From contig CP092870.1 in assembly GCA_030710605.1 (NCBI GenBank), forward strand, positions 91,937,042 to 92,001,041: a DNA stretch of 64,000 nt. The letters are read 5' to 3'. A program made the translations under genes and the position numbers. Within the stretch, counting starts at the first letter, position 1, and every line of letters starts with the position of its first letter. Shown piece by piece: positions 10,581 to 64,000 of this stretch. Under the pieces are notes generated by a model that saw nothing but the letters and a program-made list of their open reading frames with translations, did not search any database and was not told where the DNA came from. This DNA is from Cordylochernes scorpioides. Taxonomy: Eukaryota > Arthropoda > Arachnida > Pseudoscorpiones > Chernetidae.

Positions 10581-10738
10581 CGTGGATTATTTCTCTCCTC
10601 ACCACATTATTACCACTATATTGCCACATATATATATATAATACATATTTTCCAATAATATTTTACCAAACGACTGCACTTTGTAAGAAAACTTCCAAAA
10701 GGCAATTATTTTTATAAATATTCTAACATGGATGAAAA

Positions 10739-11102
10739 TTTTTCCGGGAGGATATTGATCTAAAGAGGCAAAGGTCGCCTCTCCCGTCAAAATAGACGTC
10801 AAAACTAGACGCCATCTATTGACCGTCGCCGCAACTAGCGGCCTCGGGTCGGTGACAAAGCCACATCACCAGCTTTGGCAAACTGAGAAGCGTCCACCTA
10901 GAGACCATGGTTTCGGGCTAATGGCCCTCGTCAGTCTAGGGCGGACTTTATTCCATGAGATCCGCACGGGATCTAATGGAATCTTGACAATCTGCCAAAG
11001 AGGTGTTTAGCTGACAAAGTGGCTGGGCCAAATCTATGGCTATAATATAGATGGAAATTTTGCCGGGAGGATATTGATCTAAAGAGGCAAAGGTCGCAAA
11101 GG
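10739..11102 (-). mobile_element. RZ1 element, copy 1 (carries hammerhead ribozyme)
   Basis: It is flanked by TCTAACA at 10732-10738 and 11103-11109, a probable 7-bp target duplication. The first ~45 bp (GGAGGATATTGATCTAAAG) recur at the other end 321 bp later in the same orientation, so the insertion is slightly more than one unit long, as expected from copying a circular or multimeric RNA. It is oriented by its ribozyme, which reads on the minus strand. Other landmarks are the CGCCATCTATTGACC box and the block CTAGCGGCCTCGGGTCGGTG. Confidence 0.7.
10897..10940 (-). ncRNA. Hammerhead ribozyme, RZ1 copy 1
   Basis: Read on the minus strand the 44 nt give stem I CCTAGA with TCTAGG, core CTGACGA, stem II GGGC with GCCC around loop CATTA, core GAAA, a short stem III (ACC with GGT, loop AT) and cleavage base C after GGT. 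Every conserved core base of a type I hammerhead is present. Predicted cleavage lies between 10903 and 10902 on the minus strand. Activity is inferred from structure only. Confidence 0.85.
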
Positions 11103-13979: not shown

Positions 13980-14080
13980 TGGTAGATTAAACTGGCGAAA
14001 CTACTGGGAGGGTTCACCACTGATGAGCCAGGCCTTCCCAATATATTTCCATTATAGTAAGGACACAGTACACTAAACGT
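13980..14080. mobile_element. GM-family fragment
   Basis: It has AACTGGCGAAACTACTGGGA followed by GGTTCACCACTGATGAGCC, the GM core, then TTCCATTATAGTAAGG. It lacks the outer arms. Confidence 0.55.
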
Positions 14081-14575
14081 TTTTTTCGTTAAAGTAAAAT
14101 CGTGTTAAAATAGTTTCGATTATCCCCAATGTCTTCTTTTAAATTGAGGAAGAATGGGAACTTGTCCGTAGAGGATGCTCCAATGAGTGCAGTGAATTCT
14201 CCAGACAGGCCTTTCCAATATATTTCCATTATAGTAAGGATACAGTGCACTAAGCGTTTTTTTCGTTAAAGAAAAATCGTGTTAAAATCGTTTTGATGAT
14301 CCCTAATGTCTTCTTTTAAATTGAGGAAGAATGGGAACTTGTCCGTAGAGGATGCTCCAATGAGGGCAGTGAATTCTCCAGACAGGCCTTTCCAATATAT
14401 TTCCATTATAGTAAGGATACAGTGCACTAAGCGTTTTTTTCGTTAAAGAAAAATAATGTTAAAATAGTTTCTATTATCCTCAATGTTTTCTTTTAAATTG
14501 AGGAAGAATGGGAACTACCGCTTGCAGAATTCCCCCGTAGAGGATGCTCCAATGAGGGCATTGAATTCTCCAAGC
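14065..14575. repeat. Tandem repeat, 3 units of about 176 bp
   Basis: TTTTTTTCGTTAAAG recurs near 14081, 14257 and 14434, each followed by TTGAGGAAGAATGGGAAC and GAGGATGCTCCAATGAG. The units include part of a GM-like element. 14576-14994 shows no gene. Confidence 0.75.
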
Positions 14576-15169: not shown

Positions 15170-15440
15170 CGCCAACTTCTACCCACCATGATTATCATGG
15201 CCTGTACCACGTGTACTAGGGATAAATTGTTTTTAACATGTATAGACATGTGGTGCACTTACATTTAAAATCAATCACCAACTACTACCCACCATGATTA
15301 TCATGGCCTGTACCACATGTACTAGGGATAAAGTGTTTTTAACATGTATAGACATGTGGTGCACTTACATTTAAAATCAGTCACCAACTACTACCCACCA
15401 TGATTATCATGGCCTGTACCACGGGTACTAGGGATAATAT
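15170..15440. repeat. Tandem repeat of 106 bp, 2.5 units
   Basis: Units start at 15170, 15276 and 15382 with the same phase (ACCATGATTATCATGGCC, then ACATGTATAGACATGTGG). The unit is the KS-family segment in the opposite orientation to 692-1873. 15441-16009 has no recognisable gene. Confidence 0.8.
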
Positions 15441-17237: not shown

Positions 17238-18531
17238 TTTGACATATCGGACGCGATATCCCAGCTCGGGATACTTGCGCCTAAATACATTTTAGTAGAT
17301 TATATACAATTCATTTTATACAATTTAATAACCGGACTAAAAACATAATTGAAACTTAAACGATAGCACTCTAAAACAGAAGAGAAAATCTAAAATGGAT
17401 TATTTTAGGAACCTATATACAATTCATTATATACAACTCAATAACCGACTAAAAACACAATTAAAACTGAAACGATGGTTCTCCCAAACAGAAGAGAAAA
17501 TACAAAATAAATTATTTTAGCAACCTATATACAATTCATTATATACAACTCAATAACCGACTAAAAACACAATTAAAACTGAAACGATGGCCCTCTCAAA
17601 CAGAAGAGAAAATCCAAAATGAATTTACAAAAATTATTGAATTTTACATAAGTGTCTTTGTTATATACAAATTCGCAAATTTCTTCGATGGGATAAAAAT
17701 GATTACTTCTGTAGCTGTGAAATATCGGACATTCTATTAATAAATGTATTGAGTCTTGGTTTTCTTTTCCACGGAAACAGCTAGGATCATCCGTTGCCCC
17801 GATTTTCGACAAAAATTCTCCAAAATTACCATGACCCGTTACGAACTGTGAGTTATAAAAATTCGGACGAAAATAAAAAGGAATTCCAAATGGGAAAAAT
17901 TTTCGGAATGTTTCATTAGTGTTAGCTATTGTTTCAGCCATTCTTGATTCTATGAAGTTATGAATTATAGTTGGGGCATGCGGTTTGAATACATTAATTT
18001 CTTCTTTTGATAAATTGGCCAAATCGTATTTTATTATCAACGATTCTATGTGATCTGTGAGAATAGGTATTTTTGCCAAACTATGAATACAGTTTGATGA
18101 GGTCGTTTTATAGGCTCTCACTACCCAAAGAAGAATCTGATATTGCTGAGAGTTTAATCTTTGTTTACTTCTTTTATTAATAAATTTATACCATATTTCA
18201 GATCCATAGGTTAGTATTGGCCTGAAAAGAGTTTTATATAAAATTAATCTTTTTTTAGCATCCAATCCCCACATTTTCCCACAGAGTGAAAATAAAAGAT
18301 TTTTCATACGGTTGATTTTACAAAGAATATCATTAATGTGGGGTGTGAAGTTAATTTTTGACTTAATTCTGTGATTAGAAAATTTTATACCTAAAATTTT
18401 TACTTCTTTCACTGGTGTTATTATGAAGTTTGGAGTTCCCATTGGAATATTCTGTTTGCCGTGCATATGTATTAAGCCGGTTTTCTCCGGGCTTAGTTTT
18501 AGCTTATTTCTTGTACACCATTGTATTACAT
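17238..18531 (-). mobile_element. R1-like LINE, second copy, 5' truncated
   Basis: On the minus strand the 3' UTR ends with GGGATATCGCGTCCGATA and an AAAT-repeat tail at about 17227-17240. Similar 3' UTR sequence ends the copy at 5637-9514. The 5' break is abrupt at about 18531, where PD-family sequence begins. The 3' UTR carries a 112-bp tandem repeat. Confidence 0.8.
17255..17630. repeat. 112-bp tandem repeat in LINE 3' UTR
   Basis: TATATACAATTCATT, AATAACCGACTAAAAACAC and ACAGAAGAGAAAAT recur with period 112 (for example AACCTATATAC at 17410 and 17522), about three units. The repeat is absent from the copy at 5637-9514. Confidence 0.75.
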
Positions 18532-20540: not shown

Positions 20541-20689
20541 ATATATGGTGGATTTTTGTTGTTTGATAAAAAGAAATAAGAAAAGGAGAATGACTTTCAT
20601 GTACCAAAAATGACACTTCCCCCTTCAAAAAATCATTAAACCAATGAATTTGGTTTACTACACCGGAGTACAAAGCGTAAGAAAGAAGA

Positions 20690-20790
20690 AGCTACACAAC
20701 AGAAGTTTTGATAGATTCAGACGAGAAGCCGACCTGTAAACCGTGGTTTCAAGCTATGTCCCTCATCAATACAGACAGATATAGAGAGGG
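20690..20790 (-). mobile_element. RZ1-like fragment, satellite-lineage variant
   Basis: It contains a degenerate ribozyme with stem I letters CTGTA/TACAG and the following GTCGGC, closer to the 118-bp satellite (TACAGGTTGGC) than to the other RZ1 copies. The outer parts are unrecognisable. 20791-21020 holds nothing recognisable. Confidence 0.5.
20733..20775 (-). ncRNA. Degenerate hammerhead, RZ1/satellite lineage
   Basis: On the minus strand: CTGTA, TTGATGA (C3 changed), GGGACATAGCTT as a weak stem II, GAAA, CCACGGTT as stem III plus cleavage site, TACAG closing stem I. The base change at C3 and the poor stem II argue against activity. Confidence 0.5.
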
Positions 20791-39066: not shown

Positions 39067-39411
39067 TATAAAAGAAATTGAGTCAAATACAATAGTAGAC
39101 TTATCTATAGATATGATCCTATACTCCTGTAGAAGGATTTGTGATACCCGAAGGCTTGAGGTGAATACAAAACAAAACAAGAAAAATATTCTCAGAAGCC
39201 GTTTGATTTATTATTTTATATCAATATGATGAATTAGCGCCATCTGTTATAAGAAATTTTAACTATTTTTGACATAAAGAGACAAGGGTCGCCTCTCCCG
39301 TCAAAATAGACGTCTAAAACCAGACGCCATCTATTGACCGTCGCCGCAACTAGTGGCCTCGGGTCGGTGACAAAGCCACAACACCAACTTTGGCAAACTG
39401 AAAAGCGTCCA

Positions 39412-39455
39412 CCTAGAGACCATGGTTTCGGGCTAATGGCCCTCGTCAGTCTAGG
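39412..39455 (-). ncRNA. Hammerhead ribozyme, RZ1 copy 2
   Basis: Same 44 nt as at 10897-10940: CCTAGA, CTGACGA, GGGC-CATTA-GCCC, GAAA, CCATGGTC, TCTAGG. All core bases are intact. Confidence 0.85.
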
Positions 39456-39476
39456 GCGGACTTTATTCCAAGAGAT

Positions 39477-39576
39477 NNNNNNNNNNNNNNNNNNNNNNNN
39501 NNNNNNNNNNNNNNNNNNNNNNNNNNNNNNNNNNNNNNNNNNNNNNNNNNNNNNNNNNNNNNNNNNNNNNNNNNNN
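39477..39576. other. Assembly gap (100 N)
   Basis: Exactly 100 N, the usual placeholder for unknown length. The bases on both sides (AGAGAT and CCGCACGGGATC) are adjacent in the RZ1 copy at 10739-11102. Confidence 0.95.
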
Positions 39577-40197
39577 CCGCACGGGATCTAATGGAATCTT
39601 GACAATCTGCCAAAGAGGTGTTTATTTTGACGGGAGAGGCGACCCATGTCTCTTTAGATCAATTTCCTCCCGGCAAAATTTCCATCTATACTTTTGACAT
39701 GTATGATTCTTTTTTTTTTAATAAATCAAATTTCTACTGCCCTTCCTGCAATTATAAAAGGAAACCCGAAAAATGTAATATTACAGCGGTATGGTAGATT
39801 AAACTGGCGAAACCGCTGGGAGGTTCACCACTGATGATCTAGGCCCATCTATTATTTTATCATTGCAGTAAGGGCAGTAGATAGTTGATTTATTATTTTA
39901 TATATATTGCAATGGATTTTACTTTTCCGAAAGGGATATTTAAGGATAAAAATGCGTAAGTGTGGATTCTGAGAATATGTTTCTTTATCTACTTTTCTTC
40001 AATGTTTATAATTTCAATTTTGAGATTGATTAGGCTGTTTGAGAATGGCAAACAAAAAAGTGAAAATAAAGATAGCAATCACATGCGTACGGAGCTTAGA
40101 AATGAAAATTGAAACAAATTTATTGACAACTCAGTCAATATTTACCAAATAAGTAGGAGATCACAAAAATAATTAGAGAAATAAAAAGATAGCGAAA

Positions 40198-51799: not shown

Positions 51800-52165
51800 A
51801 GAGGACGGATCAATTTCCTCCCGGCAATTTTTTCCATCTATATTCTAGCAATAGATTTGGCCCAGCCACCTTGCCAGCAAAACACCTCTTTGGTAGATTG
51901 TGAAGATTCCATTAGATCCCGTGTGGATCTCATGGAATAAAGTCCGCCCTAGACTGACGAGGGCCATTAGCTCGAAACTATGGTCTCTAGGTGGACGCTT
52001 CTCAGTTTGCCAAAGCTGGTGTTGTGGCTTTGTCACCGACCCGAGGCCGCTAGTTGCGGCGACGGTCAATAGATGGCGTCAGGTGTTGACGTTTATTTTG
52101 ACGGGAGAAGCGCCCTATGCTTCTATGGATGAATTTCCTCCCGGAAAAATTTCCATCTATATATA
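51800..52165 (+). mobile_element. RZ1 element, copy 3
   Basis: Ribozyme on the plus strand. TCAATTTCCTCCCGGCAA with TTCCATCTATA occurs at both ends in the same orientation about 320 bp apart, the same more-than-one-unit layout as copy 1. It ends in a TA run that leads into LINE sequence. Confidence 0.75.
51948..51991 (+). ncRNA. Hammerhead ribozyme, RZ1 copy 3
   Basis: CCTAGA / TCTAGG stem I, core CTGACGA, stem II GGGC with GCTC (one wobble), core GAAA, stem III ACT with GGT (one wobble), cleavage base C at 51985. The two changes from copy 1 both keep pairing. Confidence 0.85.
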
Positions 52166-53110
52166 TATATATATATAATATATTGAGGCTAGGAGGGAAT
52201 ATTTTAAGCTCCTGCAAAGAAAAAGAGATGAATTCAATAAGGACAAGAATGAAAGGATAAAGAACGCCAAAGATCCCAAATCCTTCTGGAATGCCATTGC
52301 ATCCTTCAGAAAAAAACCAATAATACAAGGTGAGATTGATATAAAAGAATGGTTTTTATTTTATAAAAATTTACTGAACAAAGAAAATAAAGAAGCTACT
52401 TTTACGGTAAACCAGATGATCGGTTGGAAAGATCCAGATTTAGACGCGGAAATAACCCTTGAAGAGATCCATGATGTAGTAAAAAAAATAGCGAACGGCA
52501 AAGCAGTGGGACTCGATGGTATACCAAATGAGTTGCTAAAGAATTTACCAATACCGACTTTAAATAAATTGAAAAACCTATTCAACAAAATAATGTCCAC
52601 AGAAAAATACCCGCAACTCTGGACGAACTCAATAGTACACCCTATATATAAAAGCGGTGATAAGAATAACCCAACAAATTACAGAGGGATTGCCCTCTGC
52701 AGTAATATATCTAAATTATTTACTACAATACTAAGAAACAGATTAAACAACTGGATAGAAAAAAGAGTGATTATTTTAGAAAACCAAGCAGGTTTCCGTA
52801 AGAACCGATCATGCACTGACCACATAATACTACTGAATTCACTCATCCAATTATCTCTGAGAAGAAAACGAGGCAAGCTATATGTCTTCTTCGTCGATTT
52901 GACTAAAGCTTTCGACACAGTCCCACATGATTTACTTTGGCAAAAATTGCATAAAATGGGCATTAGCAATAAATTTGTAATGCTGATAAAAAACTTTTAC
53001 CAAGAAGCTAAGATCACTATCCGATGGAAAGGACAATATTCAAATAATGTGAAAATTAATTCTGGAGTGTTGCAGGGAGAATCACTTTCCCCACTTTTAT
53101 TTATACTATA

Positions 53111-53750
53111 CTAGACGAATGGCCCGGGCAACGCCCGGGTTTTACCCGAGTGCGAATATATTTTAAAAACGTTTTAATCTTGTCTTCATCTTGTCTACAC
53201 CTTGTATACATCTTGCTTCCTAGGGTTGCCCGGCAACGCCCGGGTTGGGTTTACATGATTAAATGTATTATTCAAACACATTAAACATGTGCCCGTTGGC
53301 TGCCAGCGAGTAAATGTCGGCGCCCGTTGACTCCCGGCGAGCAAGCGACCGCTCCCGTCGACTGCCGGCGGGCGAGGGGCTTCCCGGCGCATGCGCGCGC
53401 CCGTTGACTCCCGGCGAGCAAGCGACTGCTCCCGTCGGCTGCCGGCGTGCGAGTGCCTTCCCGGCGCATGCGCGCGCACAGGGAAGCCACGTGTCGCAGG
53501 CGTCCAATGGGCGCGCCCCGCCATCAGATTCCACCGCGTTCTAGATGAGCTATTTAGAATAATTTGAATATATAGTTTTAATTATTGATTTATATATTTT
53601 TTTAAATAGCCTATCGTCATCCTCGTTATTTTTTACCTATGTATTGAAATTTTGGTTTGAATTAGTGAACTACTGCGAATTTGTATACCGGACATACAAA
53701 CCAACCAACCAACAGACAAACATACAAACATTCATTTTTATATATATAGA
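53111..53750 (-). mobile_element. Non-autonomous Helitron inside LINE ORF2
   Basis: Minus strand: 5' end TCTATATATATAAAAATGAA at 53750; 3' hairpin CCCGGGCGTTGCCCGGG and CCATTCGTCTAG at 53111. The host bases on the two sides are A (53110) and T (53751), exactly the expected A/T target without duplication. 640 bp; the 5' region matches 30845-31010. The middle is an unusual GC-rich block. Confidence 0.9.
53275..53545. repeat. GC-rich tandem block within the Helitron
   Basis: CCCGTTGACTCCCGGCGAGC and TTCCCGGCGCATGCGCGCGC recur about 100 bp apart, with shorter GCCCGTTGGCTGCC/GACTGCCGGCG variants between. It is CpG-dense in an AT-rich, CpG-poor region. Frames on both strands are open only because of composition. 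Confidence 0.8.
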
Positions 53751-54213
53751 TATGGCCGACCTAATAGAACTTTATAATAACTCAGCACTTACAGGATTTC
53801 ATCTCCCTGATTTTGGCGTTTTACACCTACTTATGTATGCGGATGACATAGCCATAATTGGAGAATCGAAAATTAATCTTCAAAATAAAATCAATTTACT
53901 AAAGTCTTACCTGGATAAGAACAAATTAGTTTTAAATGAAAATAAGTCCAAAATAATAGTATTCAGAAATGGAGGAAGACCGGCAAGACACGAAAACTGG
54001 TACTGGGGTGACACCCCACTGACTGTTGCGTCCAATATTACATATCTGGGATATCCATTCACTTCCACTATTAATAGTAAAAAGGTAGCCCTCTTTTATA
54101 AAGCCAAAGCAAATACGGCAATAAATGCAACTATTAGACTGATAAAAAAAGAAAAAATTAACTCATTAAAAGTTGCTCTGAATCTATTTGACTCAGTTAT
54201 TAAATCAATACTG

Positions 54214-54975
54214 CTCTATGCGGCCCCTGTGTGGGCTTGGGACAATACGGATATTATAGACCAATTACAGAATACGTTTATCAAAAATTTTCTGAATCTA
54301 CCAAGATATATACCAGGGTACATTGTAAGGCTGGAAACAGGCAGAATATCTTTGACTTTTACAACGATCAAATTAATTTTGAAATATTTCATTAGATTAC
54401 AAAAAATGGAAGACAATAGACTACCTAAGCTATGCTGGAATAGATTGAAGGAAATTTCCTTAATGACAAAAAAACCTATAGGATTCTGTAAGAATATTAT
54501 GGATATCATCAATCATTGTGGACTCACATGGCTAAACTATAGGTTAAATTATGATGACATACAGATCGAACTTCCGAATATACTAAAAATATGCGGCCTC
54601 TATGCGGCCCCTGTGTGGGCTTGGGACAATACGGATATTATAGACCAATTACAGAATACGTTTATCAAAAATTTTCTGAATCTACCAAGATATATACCAG
54701 GGTACATTGTAAGGCTGGAAACAGGCAGAATATCTTTGACTTTTACAACGATCAAATTAATTTTGAAATATTTCATTAGATTACAAAAAATGGAAGACAA
54801 TAGACTACCTAAGCTATGCTGGAATAGATTGAAGGAAATTTCCTTAATGACAAAAAAACCTATAGGATTCTGTAAGAATATTATGGATATCATCAATCAT
54901 TGTGGACTCACATGGCTAAACTATAGGTTAAATTATGATGACATACAGATCGAACTTCCGAATATACTAAAAATA
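54214..54975 (+). repeat. In-frame tandem duplication (period 384 bp)
   Basis: 54214-54591 and 54598-54975 are identical by eye. Six bases TGCGGC lie between, themselves part of the ATGCGGCC at the start of the unit, which suggests a microhomology-mediated event or a misassembly. Confidence 0.85.
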
Positions 54976-55566
54976 AAAATTGAACAGCTATTGCAGCAAG
55001 ATCTGGCAAAATTATCTCTTACGAAAACATACTCAAACTATAGGTTACTTTATGATTCATTTATTCCAGAAAATTACTTTTCATGCAATATGTCTTCAGC
55101 TTTAGTGAGTTTTATTGCACAGATCAGATTAATGTCAACAATGATCAAAGAAAATCATATTTACGCAATTAAGAAAGAAGATTTGTACTGTGGGTTATGT
55201 GGAAGTCAGATAACTGATGAAATATACCATTTTATTGCTGAATGCGGGGATTTGGAAGGAGAGAGAAAAAATATCCTGAAAAGTCTTCCTAGACCGCATT
55301 TGAACTCAATAAAGCTAATAAAAACTGTTTCAGATAAGAAAAGTTGGGCAATTGAACTGTTCAACTTTCAAAAAGCGGTTGGGAATAAAATTGCACTCAT
55401 GGAAGAGAGAAGAACAGGGGCACAATAAAACGTCACCCTGTTTGACATACCTTGACTGTAAATACTATATTTTCACCTGTTCTCTTATGGTTAATATTGT
55501 CTGTAACTCCACGGAGAATCCGTACAGGGCAAGATGCCCTAATAAAGCTGTTTTGTTGTTGTTTGT

Positions 55567-56895: not shown

Positions 56896-57027
56896 TATTT
56901 AAAAATTATAGAAAGAAATGTATAAATTGAATTGTGTTAAGTTATGTTAAAACATACATTATGTAGATTACAACATATTAAGTTGCCGGAGGAGGATATT
57001 CATGTACCTAGGAGGTACCTCTCCCTT

Positions 57028-57125
57028 TAATTATGTATCAGAACGAAGTATTATGTTCATCACCCTGGTAAAAATGCTACTAGTGGTGATAAAGGATGAG
57101 CCACAACACCAGTTTTGTGAAATTC
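57028..57125. repeat. Left inverted flank of the satellite element
   Basis: Ends GAGCCACAACACCAGTTTTG, the antisense of the GTGTTGTGGCTC block that ends each satellite unit. It resembles the RZ1 antisense half CCACATCACCAGCTTTGG. Confidence 0.8.
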
Positions 57126-60100
57126 AGATATTCAGGCTATAGCCCGAAACCATGGTATACAGGTTGGCTTTTGGCTGAAATATTTCCGTAACTGGTGTTG
57201 TGGCTCAATCTTTATCATCATTGATGACAGTATTAGCAAATTCAGATATTCAGGCTATAGCCCGAAACCATGGTATACAGGTTGGATTTTGGCTGAAATA
57301 TTTCCGTAACTGGTGTTGTGGCTCAATCTTTATTATCATTGGTGACAGTATTAGCAAATTCAGATATTCAGGCTATAGCCCGAAACCATGGTATACAGGT
57401 TGGATTTTGGCTGAAATATTTCCGTAACTGGTGTTGTGGCTCAATCTTTATTATCATTGGTGACAGTATTAGCAAATTCAGATATTCAGGCCATAGCCCG
57501 AAACCATGGTATACAGGTTGGCTTTTGGCTGAAATATTTCCGTAACTGGTGTTGTGGCTCAATCTTTATTATCATTGATGACAGTATTAGCAAATTCAGA
57601 TATTCAGGCCATAGCCCGAAACCATGGTATACAGGTTGGCTTTTGGCTGAAATATTTCCGTAACTGGTGTTGTGGCTCAATCTTTATTATCATTGATGAC
57701 AGTATTAGCAAATTCAGATATTCAGGCCATAGCCCGAAACCATGGTATACAGGTTGGCTTTTGGCTGAAATATTTCCGTAACTGGTGTTGTGGCTCAATC
57801 TTTATTATCATTGATGACAGTATTAGCAAATTCAGATATTCAGGCCATAGCCCGAAACCATGGTATACAGGTTGGATTTTGGCTAAAATATTTCCGTAAC
57901 TGGTGTTGTGGCTCAATCTTTATTATCATTGATGACAGTATTAGCAAATTCAGATATTCAGGCTATAGCCCGAAACCATGGTATACAGGTTGGATTTTGG
58001 CTAAAATATTTCCGTAACTGGTGTTGTGGCTCAATCTTTATTATCATTGATGACAGTATTAGCAAATTCAGATATTCAGGCCATAGCCCGAAACCATGGT
58101 ATACAGGTTGGCTTTTGGCTGAAATATTTCCGTAACTGGTGTTGTGGCTCAATCTTTATTATCATTGATGACAGTATTAGCAAATTCAGATATTCAGGCT
58201 ATAGCCCGAAACCATGGTATACAGGTTGGCTTTTGGCTGAAATATTTCCGTAACTGGTGTTGTGGCTCAATCTTTATTATCATTGATGACAGTATTAGCA
58301 AATTCAGATATTCAGGCTATAGCCCGAAACCATGGTATACAGGTTGGCTTTTGGCTGAAATATTTCCGTAACTGGTGTTGTGGCTCAATCTTTATTATCA
58401 TTGATGACAGTATTAGCAAATTCAGATATTCAGGCTATAGCCCGAAACCATGGTATACAGGTTGGCTTTTGGCTGAAATATTTCCGTAACTGGTGTTGTG
58501 GCTCAATCTTTATTATCATTGATGACAGTATTAGCAAATTCAGATATTCAGGCCAAAGCCCGAAACCATGGTATACAGGTTGGCTTTTGGCTGAAATATT
58601 TCCGTAACTGGTGTTGTGGCTCAATCTTTATTATCATTGATGACAGTATTAGCAAATTCAGATATTCAGGCCATAGCCCGAAACCATGGTATACAGGTTG
58701 GCTTTTGGCTGAAATATTTCCGTAACTGGTGTTGTGGCTCGATCTTTATTATCATTGATGACAGTATTAGCAAATTCAGATATTCAGGCTATAGCCCGAA
58801 ACCATGGTATACAGGTTGGCTTTTGGCTGAAATATTTCCGTAACTGGTGTTGTGGCTCAATCTTTATTATCATTGATGACAGTATTAGCAAATTCAGATA
58901 TTCAGGCCATAGCCCGAAACCATGGTATACAGGTTGGATTTTGGCTAAAATATTTCCGTAACTGGTGTTGTGGCTCAATCTTTATTATCATTGATGACAG
59001 TATTAGCAAATTCAGATATTCAGGCTATAGCCCGAAACCATGGTATACAGGTTGGCTTTTGGCTGAAATATTTCCGTAACTGGTGTTGTGGCTCAATCTT
59101 TATTATCATTGATGACAGTATTAGCAAATTCAGATATTCAGGCTATAGCCCGAAACCATGGTATACAGGTTGGCTTTTGGCTGAAATATTTCCGTAACTG
59201 GTGTTGTGGCTCAATCTTTATTATCATTGATGACAGTATTAGCAAATTCAGATATTCAGGCTATAGCCCGAAACCATGGTATACAGGTTGGCTTTTGGCT
59301 GAAATATTTCCGTAACTGGTGTTGTGGCTCAATCTTTATTATCATTGATGACAGTATTAGCAAATTCAGATATTCAGGCATAGCCCGAAACCATGGTATA
59401 CAGGTTGGCTTTTGGCTGAAATATTTCCGTAACTGGTGTTGTGGCTCAATCTTTATTATCATTGATGACAGTATTAGCAAATTCAGATATTCAGGCCATA
59501 GCCCGAAACCATGGTATACAGGTTGGCTTTTGGCTGAAATATTTCCGTAACTGGTGTTGTGGCTCAATCTTTATTATCATTGATGACAGTATTAGCAAAT
59601 TCAGATATTCAGGCTATAGCCCGAAACCATGGTATACAGGTTGGCTTTTGGCTGAAATATTTCCGTAACTGGTGTTGTGGCTCAATCTTTATTATCATTG
59701 ATGACAGTATTAGCAAATTCAGATATTCAGGCTATAGCCCGAAACCATGGTATACAGGTTGGCTTTTGGCTGAAATATTTCCGTAACTGGTGTTGTGGCT
59801 CAATCTTTATTATCATTGATGACAGTATTAGCAAATTCAGATATTCAGGCTATAGCCCGAAACCATGGTATACAGGTTGGCTTTTGGCTGAAATATTTCC
59901 GTAACTGGTGTTGTGGCTCAATCTTTATTATCATTGATGACAGTATTAGCAAATTCAGATATTCAGGCTATAGCCCGAAACCATGGTATACAGGTTGGCT
60001 TTTGGCTGAAATATTTCCGTAACTGGTGTTGTGGCTCAATCTTTATTATCATTGATGACAGTATTAGCAAATTCAGATATTCAGGCTATAGCCCGAAACC

Positions 60101-63100
60101 ATGGTATACAGGTTGGCTTTTGGCTGAAATATTTCCGTAACTGGTGTTGTGGCTCAATCTTTATTATCATTGATGACAGTATTAGCAAATTCAGATATTC
60201 AGGCCATAGCCCGAAACCATGGTATACAGGTTGGCTTTTGGCTGAAATATTTCCGTAACTGGTGTTGTGGCTCAATCTTTATTATCATTGATGACAGTAT
60301 TAGCAAATTCAGATATTCAGGCTATAGCCCGAAACCATGGTATACAGGTTGGCTTTTGGCTGAAATATTTCCGTAACTGGTGTTGTGGCTCAATCTTTAT
60401 TATCATTGATGACAGTATTAGCAAATTCAGATATTCAGGCCATAGCCCGAAACCATGGTATACAGGTTGGCTTTTGGCTGAAATATTTCCGTAACTGGTG
60501 TTGTGGCTCAATCTTTATTATCATTGATGACAGTATTAGCAAATTCAGATATTCAGGCTATAGCCCGAAACCATGGTATACAGGTTGGCTTTTGGCTGAA
60601 ATATTTCCGTAACTGGTGTTGTGGCTCAATCTTTATTATCATTGATGACAGTATTAGCAAATTCAGATATTCAGGCTATAGCCCGAAACCATGGTATACA
60701 GGTTGGCTTTTGGCTGAAATATTTCCGTAACTGGTGTTGTGGCTCAATCTTTATTATCATTGATGACAGTATTAGCAAATTCAGATATTCAGGCTATAGC
60801 CCGAAACCATGGTATACAGGTTGGCTTTTGGCTGAAATATTTCCGTAACTGGTGTTGTGGCTCAATCTTTATTATCATTGATGACAGTATTAGCAAATTC
60901 AGATATTCAGGCCATAGCCCGAAACCATGGTATACAGGTTGGCTTTTGGCTGAAATATTTCCGTAACTGGTGTTGTGGCTCAATCTTTATTATCATTGAT
61001 GACAGTATTAGCAAATTCAGATATTCAGGCCATAGCCCGAAACCATGGTATACAGGTTGGCTTTTGGCTGAAATATTTCCGTAACTGGTGTTGTGGCTCA
61101 ATCTTTATTATCATTGATGACAGTATTAGCAAATTCAGATATTCAGGCTATAGCCCGAAACCATGGTATACAGGTTGGCTTTTGGCTGAAATATTTCCGT
61201 AACTGGTGTTGTGGCTCAATCTTTATTATCATTGATGACAGTATTAGCAAATTCAGATATTCAGGCTATAGCCCGAAACCATGGTATACAGGTTGGCTTT
61301 TGGCTGAAATATTTCCGTAACTGGTGTTGTGGCTCAATCTTTATTATCATTGATGACAGTATTAGCAAATTCAGATATTCAGGCTATAGCCCGAAACCAT
61401 GGTATACAGGTTGGCTTTTGGCTGAAATATTTCCGTAACTGGTGTTGTGGCTCAATCTTTATTATCATTGATGACAGTATTAGCAAATTCAGATATTCAG
61501 GCCATAGCCCGAAACCATGGTATACAGGTTGGCTTTTGGCTGAAATATTTCCGTAACTGGTGTTGTGGTTCAATCTTTATTATCATTGATGACAGTATTA
61601 GCAAATTCAGATATTCAGGCTATAGCCCGAAACCATGGTATACAGGTTGGCTTTTGGCTGAAATATTTCCGTAACTGGTGTTGTGGCTCAATCTTTATTA
61701 TCATTGATGACAGTATTAGCAAATTCAGATATTCAGGCCATAGCCCGAAACCATGGTATACAGGTTGGCTTTTGGCTGAAATATTTCCGTAACTGGTGTT
61801 GTGGCTCAATCTTTATTATCATTGATGACAGTATTAGCAAATTCAGATATTCAGGCTATAGCCCGAAACCATGGTATACAGGTTGGCTTTTGGCTGAAAT
61901 ATTTCCGTAACTGGTGTTGTGGTTCAATCTTTATTATCATTGATGACAGTATTAGCAAATTCAGATATTCAGGCCATAGCCCGAAACCATGGTATACAGG
62001 TTGGCTTTTGGCTGAAATATTTCCGTAACTGGTGTTGTGGCTCAATCTTTATTATCATTGGTGACAGTATTAGCAAATTCAGATATTCAGGCTATAGCCC
62101 GAAACCATGGTATACAGGTTGGCTTTTGGCTAAAATATTTCCGTAACTGGTGTTGTGGCTCAATCTTTATTATCATTGATGACAGTATTAGCAAATTCAG
62201 ATATTCAGGCTATAGCCCGAAACCATGGTATACAGGTTGGCTTTTGGCTGAAATATTTCCGTAACTGGTGTTGTGGCTCAATCTTTATTATCATTGATGA
62301 CAGTATTAGCAAATTCAGATATTCAGGCCATAGCCCGAAACCATGGTATACAGGTTGGCTTTTGGCTGAAATATTTCCGTAACTGGTGTTGTGGCTCAAT
62401 CTTTATTATCATTGATGACAGTATTAGCAAATTCAGATATTCAGGCCATAGCCCGAAACCATGGTATACAGGTTGGCTTTTGGCTGAAATATTTCCGTAA
62501 CTGGTGTTGTGGCTCAATCTTTATTATCATTGATGACAGTATTAGCAAATTCAGATATTCAGGCCAAAGCCCGAAACCATGGTATACAGGTTGGCTTTTG
62601 GCTGAAATATTTCCGTAACTGATGTTGTGGCTCAATCTTTATTATCATTGATGACAGTATTAGCAAATTCAGATATTCAGGCTATAGCCCGAAACCATGG
62701 TATACAGGTTGGATTTTGGCTAAAATATTTCCGTAACTGGTGTTGTGGCTCAATCTTTATTATCATTGATGACAGTATTAGCAAATTCAGATATTCAGGC
62801 TATAGCCCGAAACCATGGTATACAGGTTGGCTTTTGGCTGAAATATTTCCGTAACTGGTGTTGTGGCTCAATCTTTATTATCATTGATGACAGTATTAGC
62901 AAATTCAGATATTCAGGCTATAGCCCGAAACCATGGTATACAGGTTGGCTTTTGGCTGAAATATTTCCGTAACTGGTGTTGTGGCTCAATCTTTATTATC
63001 ATTGATGACAGTATTAGCAAATTCAGATATTCAGGCTATAGCCCGAAACCATGGTATACAGGTTGGATTTTGGCTAAAATATTTCCGTAACTGGTGTTGT

Positions 63101-63900
63101 GGCTCAATCTTTATTATCATTGATGACAGTATTAGCAAATTCAGATATTCAGGCCATAGCCCGAAACCATGGTATACAGGTTGGCTTTTGGCTGAAATAT
63201 TTCCGTAACTGGTGTTGTGGCTCAATCTTTATTATCATTGATGACAGTATTAGCAAATTCAGATATTCAGGCCATAGCCCGAAACCATGGTATACAGGTT
63301 GGCTTTTGGCTGAAATATTTCCGTAACTGGTGTTGTGGCTCAATCTTTATTATCATTGGTGACAGTATTAGCAAATTCAGATATTCAGGCTATAGCCCGA
63401 AACCATGGTATACAGGTTGGATTTTGGCTGAAATATTTCCGTAACTGGTGTTGTGGCTCAATCTTTATTATCATTGGTGACAGTATTAGCAAATTCAGAT
63501 ATTCAGGCTATAGCCCGAAACCATGGTATACAGGTTGGATTTTGGCTAAAATATTTCCGTAACTGGTGTTGTGGCTCAATCTTTATTATCATTGATGACA
63601 GTATTAGCAAATTCAGATATTCAGGCTATAGCCCGAAACCATGGTATACAGGTTGGATTTTGGTCGAAATATTTCCGTAACTGGTGTTGTGGTTCAATCT
63701 TTATTATCATTGATGACAGTATTAGCAAATTCAGATATTCAGGCTATAGCCCGAAACCATGGTATACAGGTTGGATTTTGGCTAAAATATTTCCGTAACT
63801 GGTGTTGTGGCTCAATCTTTATTATCATTGATGACAGTATTAGCAAATTCAGATATTCAGGCTATAGCCCGAAACCATGGTATACAGGTTGGCTTTTGGT
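57122..63900 (+). repeat. 118-bp satellite array, 58 units
   Basis: AGCCCGAAACCATGG occurs 58 times from 57141 to 63866. All steps are 118 bp except one unit of 117 (about 59379, one base lost). Units differ at a few positions only: GGCTATAGCC/GGCCATAGCC, GGCTTTTGGCTGAA/GGATTTTGGCTAAA, ATGACAG/GTGACAG. The unit keeps the GAAACCATGGTATACAGG 3' half of the hammerhead and the CTGGTGTTGTGGCT block of RZ1 but has no CTGATGA in position. Open frames of 75 and 64 residues repeat with the unit and are not genes. Confidence 0.95.
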
Positions 63901-63902
63901 TA

Positions 63903-64000
63903 AATTTGTCCAAACTGGTGTTGTGGCTCAATCTTTATCACCACTAGTAAAGTATTTTACTAGGGTGATGAACATAATACATCAATATTGTGCATAATTA
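63903..64000. repeat. Right inverted flank of the satellite element (cut by window end)
   Basis: CCAAACTGGTGTTGTGGCTC, TTTATCACCACTAG and AGGGTGATGAACATAATAC mirror 57028-57125. The mirror similarity still holds at position 64000 (CATAATTA), so the end lies outside. Confidence 0.8.

Follow-up and report, generated by a model that had tools for sequence, protein, structure and literature searches.

A 118-bp tandem array between the inverted arms of a putative RZ1-related fold-back element in the pseudoscorpion Cordylochernes scorpioides

Results

The tandem array and its variation

Here we analysed a 64,000-bp stretch of contig CP092870.1 of Cordylochernes scorpioides (hereafter the window, with positions counted from its first base), which has a tandem array of 118-bp units near its end. 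The array, already described in the first-pass annotation, was recovered by Tandem Repeats Finder at 57120-63938 as 57.8 copies of 118 bp, and GAAACCATGG occurs in it 58 times, 56 of the 57 spacings being 118 bp and one 117 bp. It is made of 57 plus-strand units (56 of 118 bp and one of 117 bp; 57120..63844), which contain a broken hammerhead relic (GGCTATAGCCCGAAACCATGGTATACAGG) and end in the sequence of the inner right arm, and of a last, hybrid unit (63845..63902, plus strand) that agrees with the consensus over its first 55 bp and then passes into the sequence joining the right arm.

Variation was calculated for the 56 full units, so that neither the 117-bp unit nor the final hybrid one is included. 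They fall into 14 distinct sequences, and two units differ on average at 1.57 of 118 positions (1.3%). This difference does not clearly increase with separation over up to about 25 units and is slightly greater at 28-30 units apart, the largest separations printed. The 118-bp array is thus young or strongly homogenised. Five variant positions, selected after inspection of the array, were tested for their distribution along it. Variant 49A, present in 11 of the 56 full units, is biased towards both array ends, to a degree reached in 0 of 10000 shuffles, and variants 58A and 105G have the same tendency (109 and 80 of 10000 shuffles, respectively), while variants 19C and 85T show no end bias (4075 and 4144 of 10000). 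In addition, C at position 97 is common to the first unit and the right arm. The differences between end and interior variants fit a recent expansion or homogenisation of the interior that left older units at the edges.

The inverted arms and their relation to the unit

The name RZ1 comes from the first-pass annotation and denotes here a non-coding dispersed element of about 320 bp, represented in the 64-kb window by three copies with a hammerhead motif and by shorter pieces. The left arm of the array (56983..57119, plus strand) extends from an RZ1-like terminus (TTGCCGG, GGAGGATATT, CCTCTCCC) through CACAACACCAGTTTTGTG, in an orientation inverted relative to the RZ1 3' end. The right arm (63903..64000, minus strand) is an inverted copy of 57028-57124 that is cut by the end of the window at base 64000, its terminus lying beyond it. 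In BLAST, 57028-57124 and 64000-63903 form an inverted pair with 82.7% identity over 98 columns (E 7e-21); the joint presence of element ends and array, proposed earlier, is borne out in this form, with one arm on each side and the right one truncated. The locus therefore has the layout of a fold-back or MITE-type element, a tandem array bracketed by inverted arms, of which the right one is partial.

There is no break between the last unit and the right arm, as expected from internal expansion. Moreover, the terminal 46 bp of the most frequent unit resemble the inner right arm far beyond chance (0 of 2000 shuffles), with the first 24 bp identical and the similarity reaching to about 43 bp; across all 56 full units preceding the last one, this segment scores 52-60 against the right arm, the top shuffle score being 31. 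The last 22 bp of the unit taken alone are within chance against the right arm (643 of 2000 shuffles). Given the 24-bp identity and the score of the 46-bp segment, the unit consists of a core plus inner arm sequence, the arm part being firm over 24 bp and possibly extending to about 43 bp. A mir-3473-like hairpin reported by Rfam at 57092-57212 (E 1.3e-4; 33 bits, with the cut-off at 71.8) corresponds to pairing of the left arm with the first unit and was not accepted as an RNA gene.

The RZ1 family and its hammerhead motif

RZ1 copy 1 (10724..11097, minus strand) has a hammerhead motif (core from 10934), and its direct terminal repeat is 55 bp long (92.7%). Copy 2 (39269..39690, minus strand; core from 39449) has 43-bp inverted ends (91%) and includes a 100-N gap, and copy 3 (51808..52179, plus strand; core from 51954) is 90% identical to copy 1. 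A diverged relative with a hammerhead-like motif lies at 20585..20780 on the minus strand (core TTGATGA from 20769), and shorter RZ1 pieces are located at 24.3, 25.6, 30.1 and 12.8-12.9 kb. The arrangement of RZ1 ends is variable, being inverted in the 39.3 kb copy and direct in the other two; in the copies at 10724-11097 and 51808-52179, a piece of the 3' end precedes the 5' end in direct orientation.

A descriptor scan of both strands of the 64 kb, allowing T at core position 1 and requiring at least three stem II pairs, returned four hammerhead-like motifs, three with CTGACGA in the RZ1 copies and one with TTGATGA (20769). The motif of the RZ1 copies comprises the CUGANGA and GAAA core strands, stems I, II and III and a UH cleavage site. 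By the descriptor, the three copies carry a type-I hammerhead with a minimal stem III (CCATGG or CTATGG), which has at most 2 bp and a 2-nt loop, since the value '6' given by the scan for stem III is a palindrome count and not a number of base pairs. The minimum-energy fold of copy 3 includes stems I and II and is devoid of stem III. Rfam at gathering thresholds found one tRNA only and no hammerhead in the whole window; at E up to 10, it found no hammerhead in the RZ1 copies at 10.9 and 51.9 kb, and three RZ1-family stretches gave two matches each at E 2.5 or worse, with no hammerhead. Given the Rfam searches without a hammerhead and the fold without stem III, the motif call rests on the descriptor and on reading of the sequence, and the RZ1 copies are regarded as candidate hammerhead-bearing elements.

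Homology of the unit and arms to RZ1

The first-pass annotation had aligned the unit with the interior of RZ1 and the left flank with its terminus. We evaluated such local alignments against 1000 dinucleotide shuffles and against a background of 504 overlapping 400-bp stretches of the window on both strands, with known RZ1-family stretches left out; the hammerhead-bearing RZ1 stretches compared (481-561 bp) are slightly longer than the background ones. Both alignments were reproduced, the second in reverse complement, with none of the 1000 shuffles reaching either. The unit aligns via GGC..TAGCCCGAAACCATGGT..AGGT followed by CTGGTG.TGTGGCT, with the order kept, at z 7.8 and 8.3 against the RZ1 copies at 51.8 and 10.7 kb (0 of 1000 shuffles each). 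Its scores against the three hammerhead-bearing stretches (54, 58 and 62) exceed the best background score of 47, and BLAST matches it to RZ1 at E 2e-4 to 2e-8. With many gaps, the reverse-complemented left flank aligns to the 3' end of RZ1, starting at CAAA.CTGGTG and running to GGGAGAGG, ATATCCTC and CCGG.AA, at z 6.1 and 9.2 against the 51.8 and 10.7 kb copies (0 of 1000 shuffles each). For two of the three copies, the left arm scores 61 and 51, above its best background of 48; against the copy at 39.2-39.7 kb, its score of 36 is below this maximum. In BLAST at E 0.01, the only left-arm match to RZ1 was a 30-bp block at 52000-52029 (E 0.008), and the left flank matched 20585-20721 (E 2e-5).

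The first reading had also envisaged a joint alignment of RZ1 with the unit and both flanks, which holds for the unit and the left arm but not for the right arm, whose window-cut sequence does not stand out when taken alone. In comparisons with the 51.8, 10.7 and 20.6 kb copies, 0, 10 and 60 of 1000 shuffles, respectively, equalled it, and its RZ1 scores of 33-37 are under the background maximum of 50. Masking of the ribozyme relic reduces the unit to background level against RZ1; masked-unit scores of 63 and 66 against 39.2-39.7 kb were discarded as N-to-N matches. The link to RZ1 thus has two supports: the left arm, whose similarity does not depend on the ribozyme, and the relic together with the CTGGTGTTGTGGCT block, which keep their order in the unit and in RZ1.

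Among the eight stretches compared, the relative at 20.6-20.8 kb gave the best score with both the unit (70; 0 of 1000 shuffles) and the left arm (65; 0 of 1000 shuffles). Because the unit scores 70 with this relative and 54-62 with the RZ1 copies, the array-bearing element is assigned as a putative diverged fold-back relative and not as RZ1 itself. Exact RZ1 and unit patterns had no matches in a viral collection (viral_contigs), nor did one exact RZ1 pattern in a prokaryotic one (genome_contigs); either collection may omit this genome, so the absence of these patterns says little.

The ribozyme relic in the array

The array had been likened to hammerhead-bearing satellites, a comparison that its sequence does not support. 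Neither strand of the array contains CTGANGA anywhere, so that the hammerhead core is present in 0 of 58 units; GAAAC occurs 58 times on the plus strand, being kept in 58 of 58 units. The descriptor scan found no hammerhead in the array, and TTGATGA, which occurs late in the unit, was rejected as an alternative core, as the scan had no array match. At E up to 10, Rfam returned no match for the array stretch 60000-60300 and no hammerhead for the stretch 56900-58500, which had two other matches. The unit does not contain the combination of CUGANGA, stem II and GAAA core by which a hammerhead satellite or retrozyme is recognised. The hammerhead satellites of newts, schistosomes and cave crickets, previously offered as a parallel, self-cleave; with CTGANGA missing from the array units, they are the wrong comparison.

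By inspection, the unit and the 20.6 kb relative have the same 3' strand of stem I, TACAGG. The 5' partner of this strand is missing from the unit, its place being taken by AAATTCAGA joined to the inner left arm. When reverse-complemented, the inner left arm together with the first 9 bp of the unit gives an ungapped match to the flank just 3' of the RZ1 ribozyme, with 25 of 30 positions identical in copy 3 and 24 of 30 in copy 1, and this longer piece matches better than all shuffles (0 of 2000). Once the shared CTGGTGTTGTGGCT block is removed, the remaining inner piece of 26 bp exceeds chance with the 20.6 kb relative (6 of 2000 shuffles) but neither with RZ1 copies 1 and 3 (190 and 191 of 2000) nor with the unit and the right side of the element itself (391 and 536 of 2000). 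The inverted left arm thus seems to have its inner end where the missing ribozyme half should be. From this inverted likeness to the 3' flank comes the proposal that conversion to a fold-back element halved the ribozyme before amplification; we infer this halving rather than observe it, because the inner 26 bp stands out only against the 20.6 kb relative.

Discussion

Proposed origin of the array

We consider it probable that the locus represents an RZ1-related fold-back element whose interior has grown into an array, i.e., an emerging satellite still bracketed by both arms. In the proposed scenario, a small RZ1-related element would have turned into a fold-back element when its 5' half, with the CTGANGA part of the ribozyme in it, gave way to its own 3' flank copied in inverted orientation. 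Tandem multiplication to 58 units would then have affected the central part of this element, a core of about 72 bp plus the inner end of the right arm. Amplification may have proceeded at the DNA level, by slippage at the hairpin during replication, unequal crossing-over or gene conversion. The earlier interpretation of the array as an internal expansion of one RZ1 element is thus supported with respect to internal expansion at this single locus, but the expanded element appears to be a diverged fold-back relative. Alternatively, homogenisation may have removed the ribozyme once the array was in place.

Element ends, a broken relic and a young or homogenised array are found here at one locus beside relatives with hammerhead motifs, and the order of ribozyme loss, inversion and amplification becomes testable by genome-wide comparison. 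The locus also cautions against reading a working ribozyme into every hammerhead-like stretch of a satellite. As a broader and rather doubtful idea, the fold-back conversion may both silence the ribozyme and create the hairpin that seeds tandem growth at the DNA level, which would make it a general path by which self-cleaving mobile RNAs give rise to satellites without a ribozyme.

Alternative explanations

A retrozyme-type origin, in which multimeric or circular RNA produced by hammerhead processing is reverse-transcribed and the ribozyme decays later, seems unlikely. Animal type-I hammerheads do occur in tandem repeats, as described in the relevant passages of PMC7229834, and the 3'-end piece that precedes the 5' end in RZ1 at 10.7 and 51.8 kb would correspond to just over one turn of a circle. 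However, the hammerhead core is missing from the array, the array is bounded by inverted arms, and its 118-bp unit is shorter than the approximately 170-400 nt given in those passages (PMC7229834). Furthermore, as read from the sequence, the junction of left arm and first unit lies 26 nt 5' of GAAAC, which is not the place of hammerhead cleavage.

Still less probable is an independent satellite lying beside, or invaded by, two oppositely oriented RZ1-like insertions. The background-level score of the relic-masked unit against RZ1 agrees with such an arrangement, but the unmasked unit is far beyond chance against both RZ1 and the 20.6 kb relative, the unit and the inner right arm share an identical 24-bp block, and the last unit continues into the arm. 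Finally, a mis-assembly that created the repeat number or the arm orientation is very improbable: the window does contain a 100-N gap (39477-39576) and an exact tandem duplication of 384 bp (54214-54975), but the unit differences are structured along the array and the arms differ by 17%, which means that no single read sequence was used for both.

Comparison with known systems

Satellites can be seeded by the internal tandem repeats of fold-back or MITE-type elements, examples of which are Tetris of Drosophila virilis, pearl/CvA-type elements of bivalves and terMITEs of termites. The fold-back element favoured here resembles these elements in having inverted arms around an expandable internal repeat, with the satellite arising from the interior, and differs from them in that its core is a broken hammerhead relic and its relatives in the window have hammerhead motifs. 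Penelope-like elements possess minimal hammerheads and a variable, direct or inverted, arrangement of terminal repeats. RZ1 shares with them the very short stem III and the presence of both direct and inverted end arrangements, but lacks a long coding region. Among seven scanned open reading frames (of ten in the window with at least 130 aa), five match a LINE-type endonuclease, reverse transcriptase or RNase H, and none matches GIY-YIG.

Minimal hammerheads are also mentioned in PMC7229834, which describes animal type-I hammerheads in tandem repeats, ranging in one coral from dimers to 62-mers. The RZ1 copies, which are about 320 bp long, non-coding and equipped with a type-I hammerhead motif, are in these respects similar to the animal non-LTR retrozymes presented there; the retrozymes differ from the array, whose 118-bp unit is without a ribozyme core and lies between inverted arms (PMC7229834). 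The individual parts, tandem type-I hammerheads and satellites inside inverted-repeat elements, are known, and the present case appears to be a variation on them.

Other repeats in the window

The exact 384-bp tandem duplication at 54214-54975 (100% identity) lies inside an open frame (53563-55428) matching reverse transcriptase and is either recent or an assembly duplication. A G+C-rich repeat of 77 bp is present in 2.1 copies at 53320-53477, the G+C content of the window being 33%. Short tandem arrays with units of 177, 106 and 112 bp are located at 14029-14516, 15172-15437 and 17301-17625, respectively, and contain 2.5-2.9 copies.
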